This document shows, piece after piece, positions 11,352 to 60,984 of a stretch of 64,000 nt of DNA. Origin of the DNA: Halorubrum ruber (GTDB taxonomy: Archaea > Halobacteriota > Halobacteria > Halobacteriales > Haloferacaceae). The position numbers and the translations under genes are program-made. Numbering within the stretch: position 1 is the stretch's first letter; every line of letters starts with the position of its first letter. The stretch lies in assembly GCF_018228765.1 (NCBI RefSeq), contig NZ_CP073695.1, forward strand, positions 310,001-374,000, read 5' to 3'. The notes beneath the pieces are model-generated. The model saw nothing but the letters and a program-made list of their open reading frames with translations, had not been told where the DNA came from and searched no databases.

Positions 11352-11627
11352 CCTCCAAAGCCCCAGCCGGGCGGCGGGCGCACGCTCGCTGTGCTCCTCA
11401 CTCGGTCGCTCACTCCGTTCGCTCCCTCGTTGCGGTGCTTACTTCGCCTGCGCCCGCCGCCCGGCTGCCCCTTTGAGTCCCACCCGACCGCGACCGCACA
11501 GCACCTCACGCCTCCCCAGCCTCGTCGGCCTCCCTGCGGTCGGCCGACTCCCTCGCGCGGTGCTGTCTCGCGGCCGCCGATGGCGGCCGCTCGCAGGCAC
11601 GCGCCGACCGCTTCGTTCTTTTATAAG
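11352..11627 (+). repeat. Covarying multi-stem element, copy A
   Basis: The start box CCTCCAAAGCCCCAG is at 11352-11366. Stem I is a perfect 19 bp: CAGCCGGGCGGCGGGCGCA (11364-11382) with TGCGCCCGCCGCCCGGCTG (11449-11467). CAAAG (11356-11360) also pairs with CTTTG (11471-11475) across a CCC/CCC internal loop. Stem II is GTCGGCC/GGCCGAC and the stem III tip is CGGCCGCC/GGCGGCCG. The closing TTTATAAG (11620-11627) overlaps the uvrC stop codon. Unlike the other copies, the expected TATA position 27 bp before the box reads AGCCGAAA, so this copy may be silent. The 160 bp upstream of it hold nothing recognisable besides the lipoprotein promoter. Confidence 0.85.
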
Positions 11628-13420
11628 CGTTCGCGAAGCGTGTCGGCGGTCGCATCGCCGACGCCGTCGACGTCGGTGAGGTCGTCGCGGGAGGCGTCGC
11701 GGACGTTCTCGACCGAGCCGAACCGCCGGAGGAGGCGGCGGCGCGTCTCGGGGCCGACGCCGGGCACGTCGTCGAGGACGGTCGCCACCTCGTCGCGGAC
11801 GGTCTGGTGGTAGGAGACGGCGAAGCGGTGCGCCTCGTCGCGCACGCGCTGGAGCAGGTGGAGTTCGGGGGCGTCCTCGTCCCACCGCCGGGTGCCGGTC
11901 GGGGTGACGACCATCTCCTCGGCCTTCGCGAGGGCGACGACGGGGACGTCCCAGCCCGTCTCCGCGAGGGCGTCGCGGGCGGCGCCCAGCTGCCCCTCGC
12001 CGCCGTCGATCAGGAGGAGGTCCGGGTCGGGCCGGTCGTCGCGGTCCTCGAGCGCGCGCTCGGCGCGCCACCGGACCAGCTCGCGCATGTTCGCGTAGTC
12101 GTCGTTGCGGTCGGTGAGCTTCTTCCGGCGGTAGTCGGCCGTCTCCGCGCTCCCGTCGACGAAGCAGACGTCGGAGCCGACCACGGCGGTCCCCTGCGCG
12201 TGGCTCACGTCGAACCCCTCGATCCGCTCGGGGCGTGAGATTCCGAGCCGGTCGCCGAGCGCGCCCACGGGATCGTCGCGCCCGCCGCGTTTCCGGGCGT
12301 TCTTCAGCGCGAGCTCGACGAGCTTCGCCTCGCGGCCGGCGCCCGGGACCCGGACCGCGACGCCCTCGCCCTCCAGCCAGTCGACCACGTCGGGGTCGGC
12401 GGGCCGCTCGGCGAGGAGGACCGCGTCCGGGAACTCCCGCTCGGCGTAGTACTGCGCGAGGAACGCCGCGAGGACGGCCGCGGGGGTGTTGGCGTCGGGG
12501 TCGGCGGGGTCCGCCTCGTCCCCACCGCTCGCTGCCGCGTCCCCGCCGCCAGCGTCCTCCACCGCCGCCGCGTCGAGTCGGTGCCGGCTCCGGTCGACCA
12601 GCTGGCCGCGCTCGCTGTGGAGCCGGGCCACGCGGGCGGTGTCGCCCTCCACCGCGGCCGCCAGCACGTCGACGGTGCGGTCGTCGGTCCGGTCGCTGAC
12701 CGCCTCGCCGCCCTCGCCGTGGAACGCCTCCACGGCCTCCAATCGGTCGCGGAGGTTCGCGGCGCGCTCGAACTCGTTCGCCTCGGCCGCGGCCTCCATC
12801 CGCCGCCGCAGCGGGTCCGCGAGCGCGCCCGTCTCCCCCTCGAAGAAGCGCCGCGCGGCGGCGACGTCCTCGGCGTACTCCTCGGGGGATATCTCGCCGG
12901 TACACGGCGCCGAGCAGATGCCCATCTCGTAGTCGAGACAGGGCCGGTCGCGGCCCTCGTACTTGTGGTCCGAGCAGCCGCGGAGGCCGTACACCTCCCG
13001 CACCGCCTTCACCACGGTCTCGACGCGGCCCACGTCGGTAAACGGACCGTACGCGACCGCGCCCGCCTCGGGGTCGCGGGTCACCTCGATCTGCGGCACC
13101 TCGTGGTCTGAGAAGGCGACCAAGGGGTACGACTTGTCGTCCTTCAGCCGGACGTTGTACCGCGGCCGGAGCCGTTTGATGAGGTTCGCCTCTAAGAGGA
13201 GCGCCTGCGTCTCCGTGTCGGTGACCGCGAACTCGATCCGGTCGGCGCGCTCGACCATCCCGCGGATGCGGCCCGAGCGGGGGTCCGCGTACGACCGCAC
13301 TCGGTCGCGGAGGTCGAGCGCCTTCCCGACGTACAGCGTCGTCTCGCCCGCGCGGAACTGGTAGACCCCCGGCTCCGTCGGGAGGTCGCGGGCCCGCTCG
13401 CGCACCGCGTCGGCGTCCAT
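11621..13420 (-). CDS. uvrC: Excinuclease ABC subunit C
   Basis: 599 aa, with UvrC domains in order: GIY-YIG nuclease ([20 protein letters not shown], about residues 15-90), a Cys-rich segment ([21 protein letters not shown]), the UVR motif that binds UvrB ([20 protein letters not shown]), the RNase H-like second nuclease ([21 protein letters not shown]) and tandem helix-hairpin-helix motifs at the end. It makes both incisions in nucleotide excision repair. The start is the ATG of [10 protein letters not shown], where family similarity begins; an in-frame ATG at 13453 would add 11 residues. The TAA stop lies inside the end box of element A. uvrA is at the right edge of the window. Confidence 0.95.
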
Positions 13421-13553
13421 CGGTCTCGGATCGCCGTAGCCGCCGGACGCCATTGAACGCTGCGGGCCGGGCGCTCCCGACTCGCCGCCGCGGGGCGTCC
13501 CCGCCGCCGCCCGGTCTTCTCCGATTATCAAACTCGAATACCGGAACGTACGG

Positions 13554-13560
13554 TTTATGA
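13554..13560 (+). promoter_or_regulatory. TATA box for the soluble chemoreceptor
   Basis: TTTATGA centred about 31 bp before the ATG at 13588 predicts initiation near 13583, downstream of the in-frame TTG at 13567. It therefore supports the ATG start. Confidence 0.5.
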
Positions 13561-13587
13561 TGCCGGTTGGGAGACGGTGACGTAGAC

Positions 13588-15210
13588 ATGACGGGACTTC
13601 GCGAGCGTCTGCGGCGGCTACTCGGACGGGGGACCGACTCTCGGTCGGTCCCCGACGGGGGCGTCGTCGTCGAGAACGGACCCGATTCTGCCGGATCGGC
13701 CGACGGGACATCGAATGACGTCGTCGACCGGACCGGCGACCACACGTTCACCGACGCCGACGGCGTGAACCGCGCGGCGACGCTCGCGGGCGCCGGCTTC
13801 CAGCAGGTGTTCAACGCCACCAGCGTCCCGACCTTCATCCTCGACTGCGAGGGGAACGTCGCGGAGTGGAACGAGGCGATCGCGTCGCTCACCGGCGTCG
13901 AGCGCGAGGAGGCGATCGGCCACGACCACGTCTCGGAGCTGTTCTACCCCGACGGCCGACGGGCCGACACGCTCGCCGACAAGGTGCTCGACGTGCCGGA
14001 CACCGCCGATGAGGTCCACGGCGTCGAGCGTCGCGAGGCCGGCCGCAACCGCTACCGCGACACCAGCACGATGGTCGACCGCCACGGCGACGAGCGCCAC
14101 ATCGAGTTCACGGCGACCGCGATGTACGACGAGGAGACCGGGGAGCTCGTCGGCGTGACCGAGGTCGTCGTCGACCGGACCGAGAACGTGAACCAGCGCG
14201 ACGCCACGGGCGAGCTGGTCGCGGAGGTTCGGGAGACCGCGGAGGCGATCGGCGAGGGGGACCTCGACGCCCGCGCGAGCCGCCGCGACTCGTTCGATCA
14301 CCTCAGCGCCGACCTGGTCCGCGTCATCGACGTCGTCAACCAGATGGCCGAGAACTTAGACCAGCTCTCCTCGGGCGTCCACGAGAAGGCGCGCGACCTC
14401 GACGAGACGGTCGAGGAGGCGAGCGCCGCGGCCGCCGACATCGCCGAGAACGTCGACGAGCAGAACGAGCTCCTCGAAGAGAGCGTCTCGGAGATGCAGT
14501 CCTTCTCCGCGGGGATGGAGGAGGTGGCCGCGACGGCCGACGAGGTCGACTCCGCCGCGGTCGCGGCGGCCGACGCCGCCGACGAGGGGCTCGACGCCAG
14601 CGAGGACGCCCGCGAGGCGACCGAGGACGTCGTCGAGATCGGCGACGAGCTCGTCGAGAGTGTCGGTGCGCTCTCCGAGCGCATGGACGACATCGAGGAG
14701 GTCATCGAGGTCATCTCCGACGTGGCCGAGCAGACGAACCTGCTCGCGCTCAACGCCAACATCGAGGCCGCCCGCGCCGGCGAGGGCGGCGACGGCTTCG
14801 CGGTCGTCGCCGAGGAGGTGAAGAAGCTCGCCGACGAGACCCGCGGCTACACCGAGGAGATCACGGAGAGCCTCGACAAGCTGCAGGCGCAGTCCGCGGA
14901 GACCACCACCGCCGTCGAGCGCTCCCACGAGCGCATCGAGGATGCGGGCACCGAGATCGAGACGGTTCTCGACTCGCTCGAAGAGATCGCCGACGCCGTC
15001 GACGAGGCGGCCGCCGGCGTCGCTGAGGTCGCCCGGACCACCGACGACCAGGCCGCGACCGTCGAGGAGCTCACCTCCTCGCTGGAGGCGGTCCGGGAGC
15101 GCTCCGACCGCACCGAGGACGCGACCGAGCGCATCGTCGACGCCACCGACGACCAGGAGGCGGCCGTCGACGAGCTGATCGCCCGCGTCGAGCAGCTGGA
15201 CGCGCGGTAG
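13588..15210 (+). CDS. Soluble methyl-accepting transducer with PAS domain
   Basis: 540 aa with no membrane span, so a cytoplasmic halobacterial transducer (Htr class). A PAS domain occupies about residues 70-215 ([20 protein letters not shown]), then a HAMP-like linker ([20 protein letters not shown]), then a long coiled coil holding the CheA/CheW-binding hairpin ([19 protein letters not shown], near residue 385). Glu/Gln-rich heptads on both arms are likely methylation sites. It should feed CheA to control the archaellum motor; the PAS ligand is unknown. The start is chosen from the TATA spacing rather than the upstream TTG. It is divergent from uvrC. Confidence 0.92.
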
Positions 15211-16957: not shown

Positions 16958-17321
16958 ATTTATATACAGTACCCTTGTCCGGTCGGCGCGTGCCTCCGAG
17001 CGTCCGAAGGACGCGAGGAGCACGCGCGAGGGAGTCAGCCGGCCGGAGCGAAGCGGAGGCCGGCTGACGAGGCTGGGGAGGTGTGAGGTGCGGTCGCTGT
17101 GCGGTGGGTGGGACTCAAAGGGGCAGTCGCGAGGACAGCACAGGCGACGTAAGCACCGCAGGAACGAGCGAAGCGAGTGACGAGGCGCGCAGCGAGCGTG
17201 TGCTGTCCTCGCGACTGGGGCTTTGGCGGTGGTCGCCGTCGATCTGTGGTTGGCCATTTATTAGCGAGCGACTGGGGCTTTGGTGGTAGTCACCGACACC
17301 CCGCAATCGATCACTTATAAA
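16958..17321 (-). repeat. Covarying multi-stem element, copy B
   Basis: Sense strand is minus. The TATA box CTTATAAA (17314-17321) is followed after 27 nt by the first start box. A second TATA-like box (TAATAAAT region near 17260), again 27 nt before a box, repeats the unit 57 bp on. Stem I is TGTGCTGTCCTCGCGACTG (17199-17217) with CAGTCGCGAGGACAGCACA (17124-17142), 19 perfect pairs. Stem II is TCAGCCGGCC/GGCCGGCTGA. The stem III tip is GCGTCC/GGACGC closed by a cUUCGg loop. It ends at ATTTATATA (16958-16966). It fills the gap between two convergent genes. Confidence 0.88.
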
Positions 17322-26020: not shown

Positions 26021-26374
26021 TTTATAAATCAACTGCGGTGGCGCGTGCCGGTGAGCGCCCGAAGGGCGCGAATCGCACGCGCGAGGGAGTCGGCCGACCA
26101 CAGGGAGGCCGACGAGGCTGGGGAGGTGTGAGGTGCTGTGCGGTCGCGGGGCGGGACTCAAAGGGGCAGTCGGGAGGACGCCGTAGGCGACGTAAGCACC
26201 GCAACGAGGAAGCGAACGAAGTGAGCGACCGAGTGAGGAGCGCAGCGAGCGTACGGCGTCCTCCCGACTGGGGCTTTGGAGGTAGTCGCCGTCGATCAGG
26301 AGGTGTCAGCGTATAGCCGAGCGGCTGGGGCTTTGGCGGTGTTCGCCGTCGATCTCTGGTCTCCCGCTTATAAA
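26021..26374 (-). repeat. Covarying multi-stem element, copy C
   Basis: Sense strand is minus. The promoter box CTTATAAA (26367-26374) precedes a start box by 27 nt. A second TATA-like box, GCTATACG, again lies 27 nt before a second start box. A degenerate third unit (CGACTGGGATTTAAA, about 26379) lies outside. Stem I is TACGGCGTCCTCCCGACTG (26252-26270) with CAGTCGGGAGGACGCCGTA (26167-26185). Stem II is GTCGGCC/GGCCGAC and the stem III tip is GCGCCC/GGGCGC with a cUUCGg loop. It ends at TTTATAAA (26021-26028). It fills most of the 558-bp gap before the FMN reductase gene. Confidence 0.88.
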
Positions 26375-29932: not shown

Positions 29933-30230
29933 TTTATAAATCGTCGTTACTAGCGATGTGGTAAACGCCTCCAAAGCCCCAGCCGTGAGGCGGGCGCACG
30001 CTCGCTGCGTTCCTCGGTCGCTCACTTCGTTCGCTCCCTGCGGTACTTGCGTCGCCTGCGCCCGCCTCACGGCTGCCCCTTTGAGTCCCGCCCCGCACGG
30101 CAGCCTCACGCCTCCCCAGCCTCGTCGCTGGCACCCTCCGCTTCGCTCCGGGAGCCAGCGACTCCCTCGCGCGGTGCTGCTCGGCCGCAAAGCGGCCTCG
30201 CAGGCACGCGCCACCGCGGCTGTTTATAAA
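29933..30230 (+). repeat. Covarying multi-stem element, copy D
   Basis: A simple, single-unit copy and a good reference. TTTATAAA (29933-29940) is followed by exactly 27 nt, then CCTCCAAAGCCCCAG at 29968. Stem I is CAGCCGTGAGGCGGGCGCA (29980-29998) with TGCGCCCGCCTCACGGCTG (30057-30075). Stem II is TCGCTGGC/GCCAGCGA and the stem III tip is GGCCGC/GCGGCC. The end box is TTTATAAA at 30223-30230. It lies between the KH gene and the thermosome gene; its sense strand matches both. Confidence 0.9.
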
Positions 30231-34261: not shown

Positions 34262-34337
34262 GGTTCGAATCCCTCCCTCGGCACAGCACCGCCGCTCGCG
34301 GTTTTGCTCGCGGCGGTGACAGCGGGCCGGGAGGGAT
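34262..34337. repeat. 76-bp direct repeat, proximal copy overlapping tRNA-Lys
   Basis: This is the second copy of the repeat at 34006-34081, offset by 256 bp; its end forms the true 3' end of tRNA-Lys. The 180 bp between the copies are a low-complexity TTCGCTCGC-type stretch with another T-arm-like GGGATTCGAACCA at 34150-34162. No coding sequence is recognised there. Confidence 0.75.
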
Positions 34338-34396
34338 TCGAACCCCCGACCGTCCGGTTAAAAGCCGGACGCTCTCCCTAACTGAGCTACCGGCCC
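34323..34396 (-). tRNA. tRNA-Lys (anticodon TTT)
   Basis: A 74-nt cloverleaf on the minus strand: acceptor GGGCCGG/CCGGCCC, D-arm with TAGCTCAGTTAGG, anticodon stem TCCGG/CCGGA with loop CTTTTAA (anticodon TTT), T-loop TTCGAAT and discriminator G. CCA is not encoded. There is no intron. Its 3' side is duplicated 256 bp downstream, a hint of past integration or recombination at this tRNA. Confidence 0.95.
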
Positions 34397-43191: not shown

Positions 43192-43558
43192 TTTATAAAT
43201 AGCTGCTACTAACTCGACGGACGACACCTCCAAATCCCCAGCCGCTTACTTATAAATAGCTGCCAGCAAGCCGACGGACGACACCTCCAAAGCCCCAGCC
43301 GCGAGGGCGGCGTACGCTCGCTGCGCGCTTCACTCGGTCGCTCACTGCGTTCGCTCCCTCGTTCCAGTGCTTACGTCGCCTACGCCGCCCTCGCGGCTGC
43401 CCCTTTGAGCCCCACCCGACGGCGACCGCACGGCACCTCACGCCTCCCCAGCCTCGTCAGTCGCCGTCGCTTCGCTCCGGCGACTGACTCCCTCGCGCGT
43501 GCTGCTCGGCCGCGGGGCGGCCTCGCAGGCACGCGCCACCGCACCGCATTTATAAACA
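43192..43558 (+). repeat. Covarying multi-stem element, copy E
   Basis: Two promoter-box units 57 bp apart. TTTATAAA (43192-43199) then 27 nt then a mutated box (CAAAT for CAAAG, at 43227); CTTATAAA (43249-43256) then 27 nt then the proper box at 43284. Stem I is CAGCCGCGAGGGCGGCGTA (43296-43314) with TACGCCGCCCTCGCGGCTG (43381-43399). Stem II is TCAGTCGCCG/CGGCGACTGA and the stem III tip is GGCCG/CGGCC. The end box is TTTATAAA (43551-43558). It fills the 514-bp gap before the convergent ABC ATPase gene. Confidence 0.9.
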
Positions 43559-50290: not shown

Positions 50291-50666
50291 TTTATAAATA
50301 GATCTCGCTGGATCGGCGGTGAACACTTGCTTGGCCCCAGCCGCTTGCTTATAAATAGCCACCTGTCGCTTGCCGGCGAACACCTCCAAAGCCCCAGCCG
50401 GGAGGGCGGCGCACGCTCGCTGCGGTCCTCACTCGGTCACTCACTGCGTTCGCTCCCTCATTGCGGTCCTTACGTCGCCTGCGCCGCCCTCCCGGCTGCC
50501 CCTTTGAGCCCCGCCCCGCACGGCACCGCACCTCACGCCTCCCCAACCTCGCCGCTCGCTCGGGGCTCCCTCCGGTCGCCCGCGTCGCTCGCGGCGTCCC
50601 TCGCGCGGTGCTGCTCGGCCGCTTCGCGGCCTCGCAGGCACGCGCCACCGCACCACCATTTATAAA
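50291..50666 (+). repeat. Covarying multi-stem element, copy G
   Basis: Two units 57 bp apart. TTTATAAA (50291-50298), 27 nt, then a decayed box (CTTGCTTGGCCCCAG at 50326); CTTATAAA (50348-50355), 27 nt, proper box at 50383. Stem I is CAGCCGGGAGGGCGGCGCA (50395-50413) with TGCGCCGCCCTCCCGGCTG (50480-50498). Stem II is CGCCGC/GCGGCG and the stem III tip GGCCGC/GCGGCC. The end box is TTTATAAA (50659-50666). It sits between hisA and hisB in their direction. Confidence 0.9.
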
Positions 50667-60647: not shown

Positions 60648-60984
60648 TTTATAAATGGAATCTCGACGTTGCCGTCGGTTGTTTATAAGTGATCGATGCT
60701 ACTGCGGTGAGGGCTTCCAAAGCCCCAGCCGTCGAGGATGGTGTACCCTCGCTGCGCTCCTCACTCGGTCGCTTGGCTCCCTCATTCCGGTGCTTACGTC
60801 GGCTACACCATCCTCGACGGCTGCCCCTTTGAGTCCCACCCCACACCGCACAGCACCGCAGCCTCACGCCTCCCCAGCCTCGCCGCTCACGCCCTCCGGG
60901 CGTTCGCGGCGTCCCTCGCGGGCTGGCTCGCGGCCGCCGGTGGCGGCCGCTCGCAGGCGCGCCACCGCACTTTCTTTTTATAAC
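60648..60984 (+). repeat. Covarying multi-stem element, copy H (most diverged)
   Basis: TTTATAAA (60648-60655) and TTTATAAG (60682-60689) precede the box (GCTTCCAAAGCCCCAG near 60713); here the last spacing is about 24 nt, not 27. Stem I is 20 bp: CAGCCGTCGAGGATGGTGTA (60726-60745) with TACACCATCCTCGACGGCTG (60804-60823). Stem II is CGCCGC/GCGGCG with inner ACGCCC/GGGCGT. Stem III at the base is weak because AC is lost from GCACGCGC. It ends with a T-rich TTTCTTTTTATAAC (60971-60984). It fills the gap between the small membrane protein and uvrA. Confidence 0.88.

Follow-up and report, generated by a model that had tools for sequence, protein, structure and literature searches.

A hairpin repeat of Halorubrum with a TATA-bearing 57-bp leader unit, and the probable origin of its constant TATA-to-box interval

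The question and the copies in the window

The window, i.e. the whole stretch of DNA that was analysed, comprises 64 kb (70% GC) out of a 3.02-Mb Halorubrum chromosome and contains copies A to H of an intergenic repeat. In several of these copies a TATA-like word precedes the box CCTCCAAAG by 27 nt, which the first-pass annotation had interpreted as promoter geometry that gives the element a direction and a predicted 5' end. The locus thus raises the question whether the constant interval reflects the distance from a TATA box to a transcription start, or whether both landmarks were copied together. The copies and the landmarks of copy E, which served as reference, are as follows.

11352..11628, plus strand: copy A, leader TATA absent
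16960..17321, minus strand: copy B, two leader units with 27 nt each
26021..26374, minus strand: copy C, two leader units, the inner one without TATA
29933..30230, plus strand: copy D, one leader unit with 27 nt
43192..43556, plus strand: copy E, two 57-bp leader units, a three-hairpin core and TTTATAAA at the right end
43192..43199, plus strand: copy E, outer unit, TATA-like palindrome TTTATAAA, 27 nt ahead of the box at 43227
43227..43235, plus strand: copy E, box CCTCCAAAT of the outer unit
43249..43256, plus strand: copy E, inner unit, TATA-like word CTTATAAA, 27 nt ahead of the box at 43284
43284..43292, plus strand: copy E, inner box CCTCCAAAG, whose CAAAG at 43288-43292 forms the 5' base of hairpin 1
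43288..43407, plus strand: copy E, hairpin 1, in the order CAAAG, CCCC, stem, loop, complementary stem, CCCC, CTTTG; stem copy-specific and covarying
43549..43556, plus strand: copy E, right-end TTTATAAA
48784..49427, minus strand: copy F, seven 57-bp units, the outermost with TATA (28 nt), the inner six with GCGATACG
50291..50666, plus strand: copy G, two leader units, the outer box decayed to CTTGCTTGG
60648..60984, plus strand: copy H, belonging to the 24-nt sub-family; the remaining members of the latter lie inside a MITE with the terminal inverted repeat (TIR) GGCTCTGTTGAAA

The sole RNA gene in the window is a tRNA-Lys (TTT) at 34322-34396. A search of the window against Rfam 15 at gathering scores matched this tRNA alone, so no Rfam family was found for the repeat. 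The right-end TTATAA of copy A (11621) overlaps a possible stop codon TAA of a minus-strand open reading frame (11621..13711), and the edge TTATAA of copy B (17315) likewise lies over the TAA stop of a minus-strand open reading frame. Copies A and B may therefore abut or form gene ends.

Spacing between the TATA-like word and the box

Direct counting in the window gave 27 nt for copies B, D, E and G and for the outer unit of copy C, whereas the inner unit of copy C, for which the same value had been assumed, comprises GCTATACG instead of a TATA. Furthermore, the 27-nt interval does not run through the array of copy F as had been proposed, since its six inner units have no TATA and show GCGATACG at that position. 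The remaining values of the first-pass annotation were reproduced, namely 28 nt for the outermost unit of copy F, 24 nt for copy H and the loss of the leader TATA in copy A; the far-end spacing, described there as variable, amounts to 14-24 nt between GCGCC and the right-hand TATA. Within the window, only copy D and the outer units of copies E and G show exactly TTTATAAA 27 nt ahead of the box. The other words at this distance are TTTATAAG (outer units of B and C), CTAATAAA (inner unit of B) and CTTATAAA (inner unit of E).

A similar picture was obtained for the whole genome. Among 159 leader units drawn from about 100 fetched copies, the interval was 27 nt in 96, 24 nt in 15, 26 nt in 3 and another value in 3, and 42 units were TATA-less, so that 27 nt holds for 96 of the 117 units keeping a TATA-like word. 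Other Halorubrum genomes showed 27 nt in 60 units, 24 nt in 3 and no TATA in 33, and the 27-nt spacing is kept in old single-unit copies, too. Chance is excluded as the source of the TATA-box spacing: TTTATAAA occurs 10 times in the window compared to 0.00 expected occurrences, and about 95% of the TTTATAA/TTATAAA matches adjoin elements (443 vs 24 in 390 kb), a share that is somewhat inflated because the sequence was fetched around elements. Since the units are homologous copies, they do not provide independent evidence for a constraint on the spacing.

A tandemly copied leader unit

The distance from box to box is 57 bp in 61 of 62 pairs, and the distance from a box to the next TATA is 20 nt in 43 of 43 cases, which is fixed as firmly as the distance from TATA to box. 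The reason for both being fixed is that a single 57-bp unit, copied in tandem, contains the TATA as well as the box. Neighbouring units within a copy were at least 90% identical in 19 of 62 pairs, compared to 0.2% of the pairs between different copies. Orthologous copies are present in the genomes of H. sodomense and H. distributum. The number of units varies at orthologous sites of sister species, as can be seen for copy F with seven units and its H. distributum orthologue with two. In 78 of 97 copies the TATA beside the core is retained despite drift of the intervening sequence up to the box, a retention that could result from selection on the TATA.

Altogether, the most probable reading is that the 27-nt interval is inherited via the copied 57-bp unit of a noncoding, dispersed and structured repeat, with CCTCCAAAG as a hairpin base and not a start box. 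TATA and box would be two landmarks in a leader unit that is copied along with the element and has been duplicated in tandem in the manner of a minisatellite, presumably by slippage or recombination. The TATA-bearing leader would have been added in the Halorubrum lineage, and the copies would persist as largely neutral intergenic repeats.

The box as the base of a covarying hairpin

In copy E, the CAAAG of the box pairs with a CTTTG about 110 nt downstream, and both together form the base of hairpin 1. The fold of this copy has a z of -4.5. In a core alignment of 64 copies, 92.9% of the cells were paired, and double-changed cells amounted to 402 compared to a shuffle mean of 120 and a maximum of 139; this excess is not a strict probability, as the relatedness of the copies survives shuffling. 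The stem letters differ among copies with the complementarity being kept (17 perfect pairs in most copies), and the box covaries with the far side of the hairpin. CCTCCAAAG is the 5' base of a hairpin of 17 bp or more.

The same genome also harbours a minority variant (G000 about 232000, g00:62006-; matches of CCGAAGCCCCAG) that carries CGAAG...CTTCG in place of CAAAG...CTTTG, which is another compensating change at the hairpin base; some of its pairs show box spacings of 66-69. The loop of hairpin 1 can contain small inserted hairpins such as TTCGAAAGGCGCGAAGCGCCTTTCGTGATGACGAGACGCC. They recur in several copies, at L103 about 975-1030 and in the upstream loops of copies 530427-, 1166819+ and 1827143+.

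Distribution in genome, genus and class

Counted by the exact tail GCCCCTTTGAGYC(CC), the chromosome comprises 153-157 copies, i.e. a high-copy extragenic palindrome with stems of 17 bp or more, as is typical of the REP type. Within a 384-kb stretch, most of the copies are common to this genome, G074 and further relatives. For 117 copies the intergenic context was determined as convergent in 40, co-directional in 56 and divergent in 21 cases. A role as promoter or terminator of genes was rejected on the basis of position, given that the orientation to the neighbours is not consistent and only a moderate excess of convergent sites was found.

The exact tail GCCCCTTTGAGYC was present in all 35 Halorubrum members sampled. 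Outside the genus, 24 genomes yielded no match to the exact Halorubrum tail TTTGAG. A family survey allowing one mismatch returned mainly the form CTTTCAG, and by these matches a class-wide family was recognised. The right-arm 20-mer occurs in 125 of 242 Halobacteria genomes and 49 of 74 genera, with no match of the reversed-pattern control. Other genera show the same hairpin design with CGAAAG and CTTTCAG, a compensating change within the box. In none of the 44 hairpins read from these genera was a TATA-type word found upstream of the box. As TATA-less homologues of box and hairpin are spread over the class, both are older than the TATA leader, and we infer a gain of the leader in Halorubrum and not a loss elsewhere.

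In other genera the hairpins are often arranged as tail-to-tail inverted pairs with tails tens of bp apart, resembling REPINs (G233:C3:158130/158174, G276:C8:1857199/1857243 and G267:C1:104274/104320). For the 11-mer CTTTCAGTCCC, no published description in haloarchaea was found in the literature searched; the match in PMC5217627 was discarded, as it concerns a CRISPR repeat of bacteria. The hairpin repeat is uncatalogued.

The leader TATA as a putative promoter

Another explanation for the interval would be that TTTATAAA is an archaeal TATA box with a start a few nt before CCTCCAAAG, that each copy yields a short structured ncRNA and that tandem units are tandem promoters. For calibration, AT-hexamers upstream of ATGs were collected in Halorubrum genomes, with gene calls by a crude composition score; as these native sites were preselected for the AT-hexamer, they are readable for distance and word use only. 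In this genus the native AT-hexamers lie mostly 30-33 nt ahead of leaderless ATGs, compared to the 27 nt between TATA and box. The resulting predicted start lies 2-5 nt ahead of CCTCCAAAG, within GAACACC and near the 3-6 nt proposed earlier. Consequently, the geometry of a promoter fits and the two predicted starts are close, whereas the constant spacing, on which the first-pass annotation had relied, is weak evidence for a promoter. Transcription direction and 5' end of the element are therefore to be taken as predictions.

Besides the 96 of 117 units with 27 nt and the retention of the TATA in most copies, the conserved GATC is in favour of a promoter, as its AT, at 21-22 nt from the first base of the TATA, is close to the A-rich -10 position of native sites. 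A precedent is given by halovirus HF2 with its proven repeat promoters (PMC8707807). Against these points, an A-rich BRE as in the CGAAA expected from Haloferax work (PMC4983044) is absent, the unit consensus ahead of the TATA being CCGCTCGC; the native sites of the genus also showed a weak A excess only. Among the few cells of hairpin 1 that are of the unpaired type, A-C outnumbers G-T by 30 to 7, which would favour the other strand if RNA counts. Moreover, the promoter inference is weakened by the reverse interval from box to TATA being as fixed as the forward one, by the box being a covarying hairpin base, by the class-wide homologues with box and hairpin but no TATA, and by the word itself, since TTATAA is palindromic, alone gives no direction and was found in just 7 of 136 candidate native promoters, which favour TTTTWA. 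Copy F amplified units whose TATA had been lost. Of 50 co-oriented genes lying downstream, no more than 2 begin at a distance of 15-40 nt from the right-hand TATA. Taken together, a promoter reading of this kind seems rather unlikely, although the leader TATA may act as a promoter weakly or under certain conditions. The copied leader unit remains the preferred reading of the interval.

Fixed spacing inside a repeat should be treated with caution, as it is not evidence for promoter geometry. Copies at orthologous sites, which have between 0 and 7 TATA units, would make it possible to relate promoter activity to the number of units.

The conserved C-tracts

The element could also act from the opposite strand, where G-rich RNA or DNA with four G-tracts around the hairpin duplex would form a quadruplex-duplex hybrid that is recognised by a host protein. 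The corresponding C-tracts (left CCCC, right CCCC, TCCC and RCCC) are unpaired in the fold and intact in 88-99% of 172 Halorubrum copies. They are also intact in nearly all of the 44 copies from other genera, with stem letters varying freely. The A-C excess over G-T in the stem points in the same direction in Halorubrum and elsewhere (15 to 7, p = 0.13), but the A-C cells originate mostly from two stem positions and from related copies. In addition, the third loop would measure 25-90 nt, and conserved C-tracts could equally be transposase contacts. Given this relatedness and the weight of two stem positions in the count, the A-C excess and the nearly invariant C-tracts are a lead only, and we regard such a hybrid as improbable. 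Hardly more can be said for the extended version, in which the hybrid would be selected across the haloarchaea and Halorubrum alone would have added a self-multiplying TATA leader, maybe driving transcription.

Mobility of the element

The 24-nt class including copy H shares its flanks, because its copies sit inside a MITE with the TIR GGCTCTGTTGAAA at both ends. All seven full-length MITE copies are bordered by 8-bp target duplications with 7 or 8 of 8 positions matching, and empty sites were found in relatives, namely in G074 for the insertion L101 and in G000, G027 and G028 for the insertion at g74:228423. TIRs, target duplications and empty sites identify a MITE for the H-type sub-family only. 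They show that this sub-family moved as MITE cargo, and it is the only one for which movement was shown. The MITE measures about 600-650 bp, as in L101 764-1420 (G000:377300-380000) and g74:228423, and it bears the hairpin element in either orientation relative to its arms. No transposase of the MITE was found.

Several candidates for the origin were considered. An IS6-type transposase as parent of the MITE seems not to fit, as the own genome has no PF13610 and the sole IS6 locus of the genus with recognisable ends has the TIR GTGTTCAGATAAG and not GGCTCTGTTGAAA. The genome comprises one Y1 transposase. A halovirus or plasmid origin was discarded, too: blastn of copy E against a phage collection gave no match, and the two plasmid matches were weak.

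In the ordinary copies, for example copy E, no TIR with target duplication and no clean empty site with a duplication was found. TTTATAAA as their target-site duplication was rejected, since the same-copy similarity of left and right TATA words was reached by 42 of 500 shuffles. A related possibility would be that the TTTATAA palindromes at the two ends serve the mobile element for recombination or protein binding, as sites for a transposase or a host factor or as a preferred target, and are not promoters. Most copies do have TATA-like words at each end (right end in 66 of 90), and the MITE-borne sub-family has two words per end, 32-34 nt apart. The flanks of copy G mirror each other (GTTCATTTATAAAT and ATTTATAAATGAAC), and one MITE insertion (L143) duplicated ATTTATAA/ATTTATAG. 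Yet the ordinary copies comprise no target duplication at the TATA words, and the ends of the MITE are located elsewhere, at GGCTCTGTTGAAA. Judged from these patterns, such sites are unlikely, and we know of no protein that binds the TTTATAA palindromes of this element.

Comparison with known systems

The whole element is a REP/MITE-like noncoding repeat with a TATA minisatellite. Half of the Halobacteria genomes sampled contain its marker 20-mer, and in Halorubrum it reaches more than 150 copies; it is a good natural system for the spread of structured archaeal repeats and the upkeep of stem complementarity.

The class I intergenic repeats of the Halorubrum virus HF2 (PMC8707807) are similar in length (56-58 bp) and comprise an AT-box, with the TATA box of these promoters starting at -26. 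They differ in their motifs (CTTTAAGT, CGTCTNNTAGAG) and are not in tandem with a hairpin. The BrickBuilt MITE of Porphyromonas gingivalis (PMC4596501) is likewise an intergenic noncoding repeat with a variable-number minisatellite beside structured ends and promoter-like elements inside. In contrast to this bacterial element with a 23-bp unit and 19 copies, the present one is archaeal with a 57-bp unit and more than 150 copies, and terminal repeats with target duplication were shown for one sub-family only.

According to the parts of PMC3119063 considered here, the PATEs, MITEs and SMRs of Haloquadratum walsbyi are short, transposase-free, dispersed palindromic repeats in a haloarchaeon, too. 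The MITE class resembles the H-type copies in its terminal inverted repeats and target duplications, and the PATEs, which cause no target duplication, have near-terminal palindromes in common with IS605-type transposons. Neither 57-bp TATA units nor a class-wide C-tract hairpin are described in those parts. A further resemblance exists to the bacterial REP/BIME elements, as portrayed in the sections of PMC2817692 consulted: these are high-copy extragenic palindromes mobilised by REP-associated tyrosine transposases, and the frequent inverted pairs of hairpins tens of bp apart in other haloarchaeal genera are reminiscent of them.
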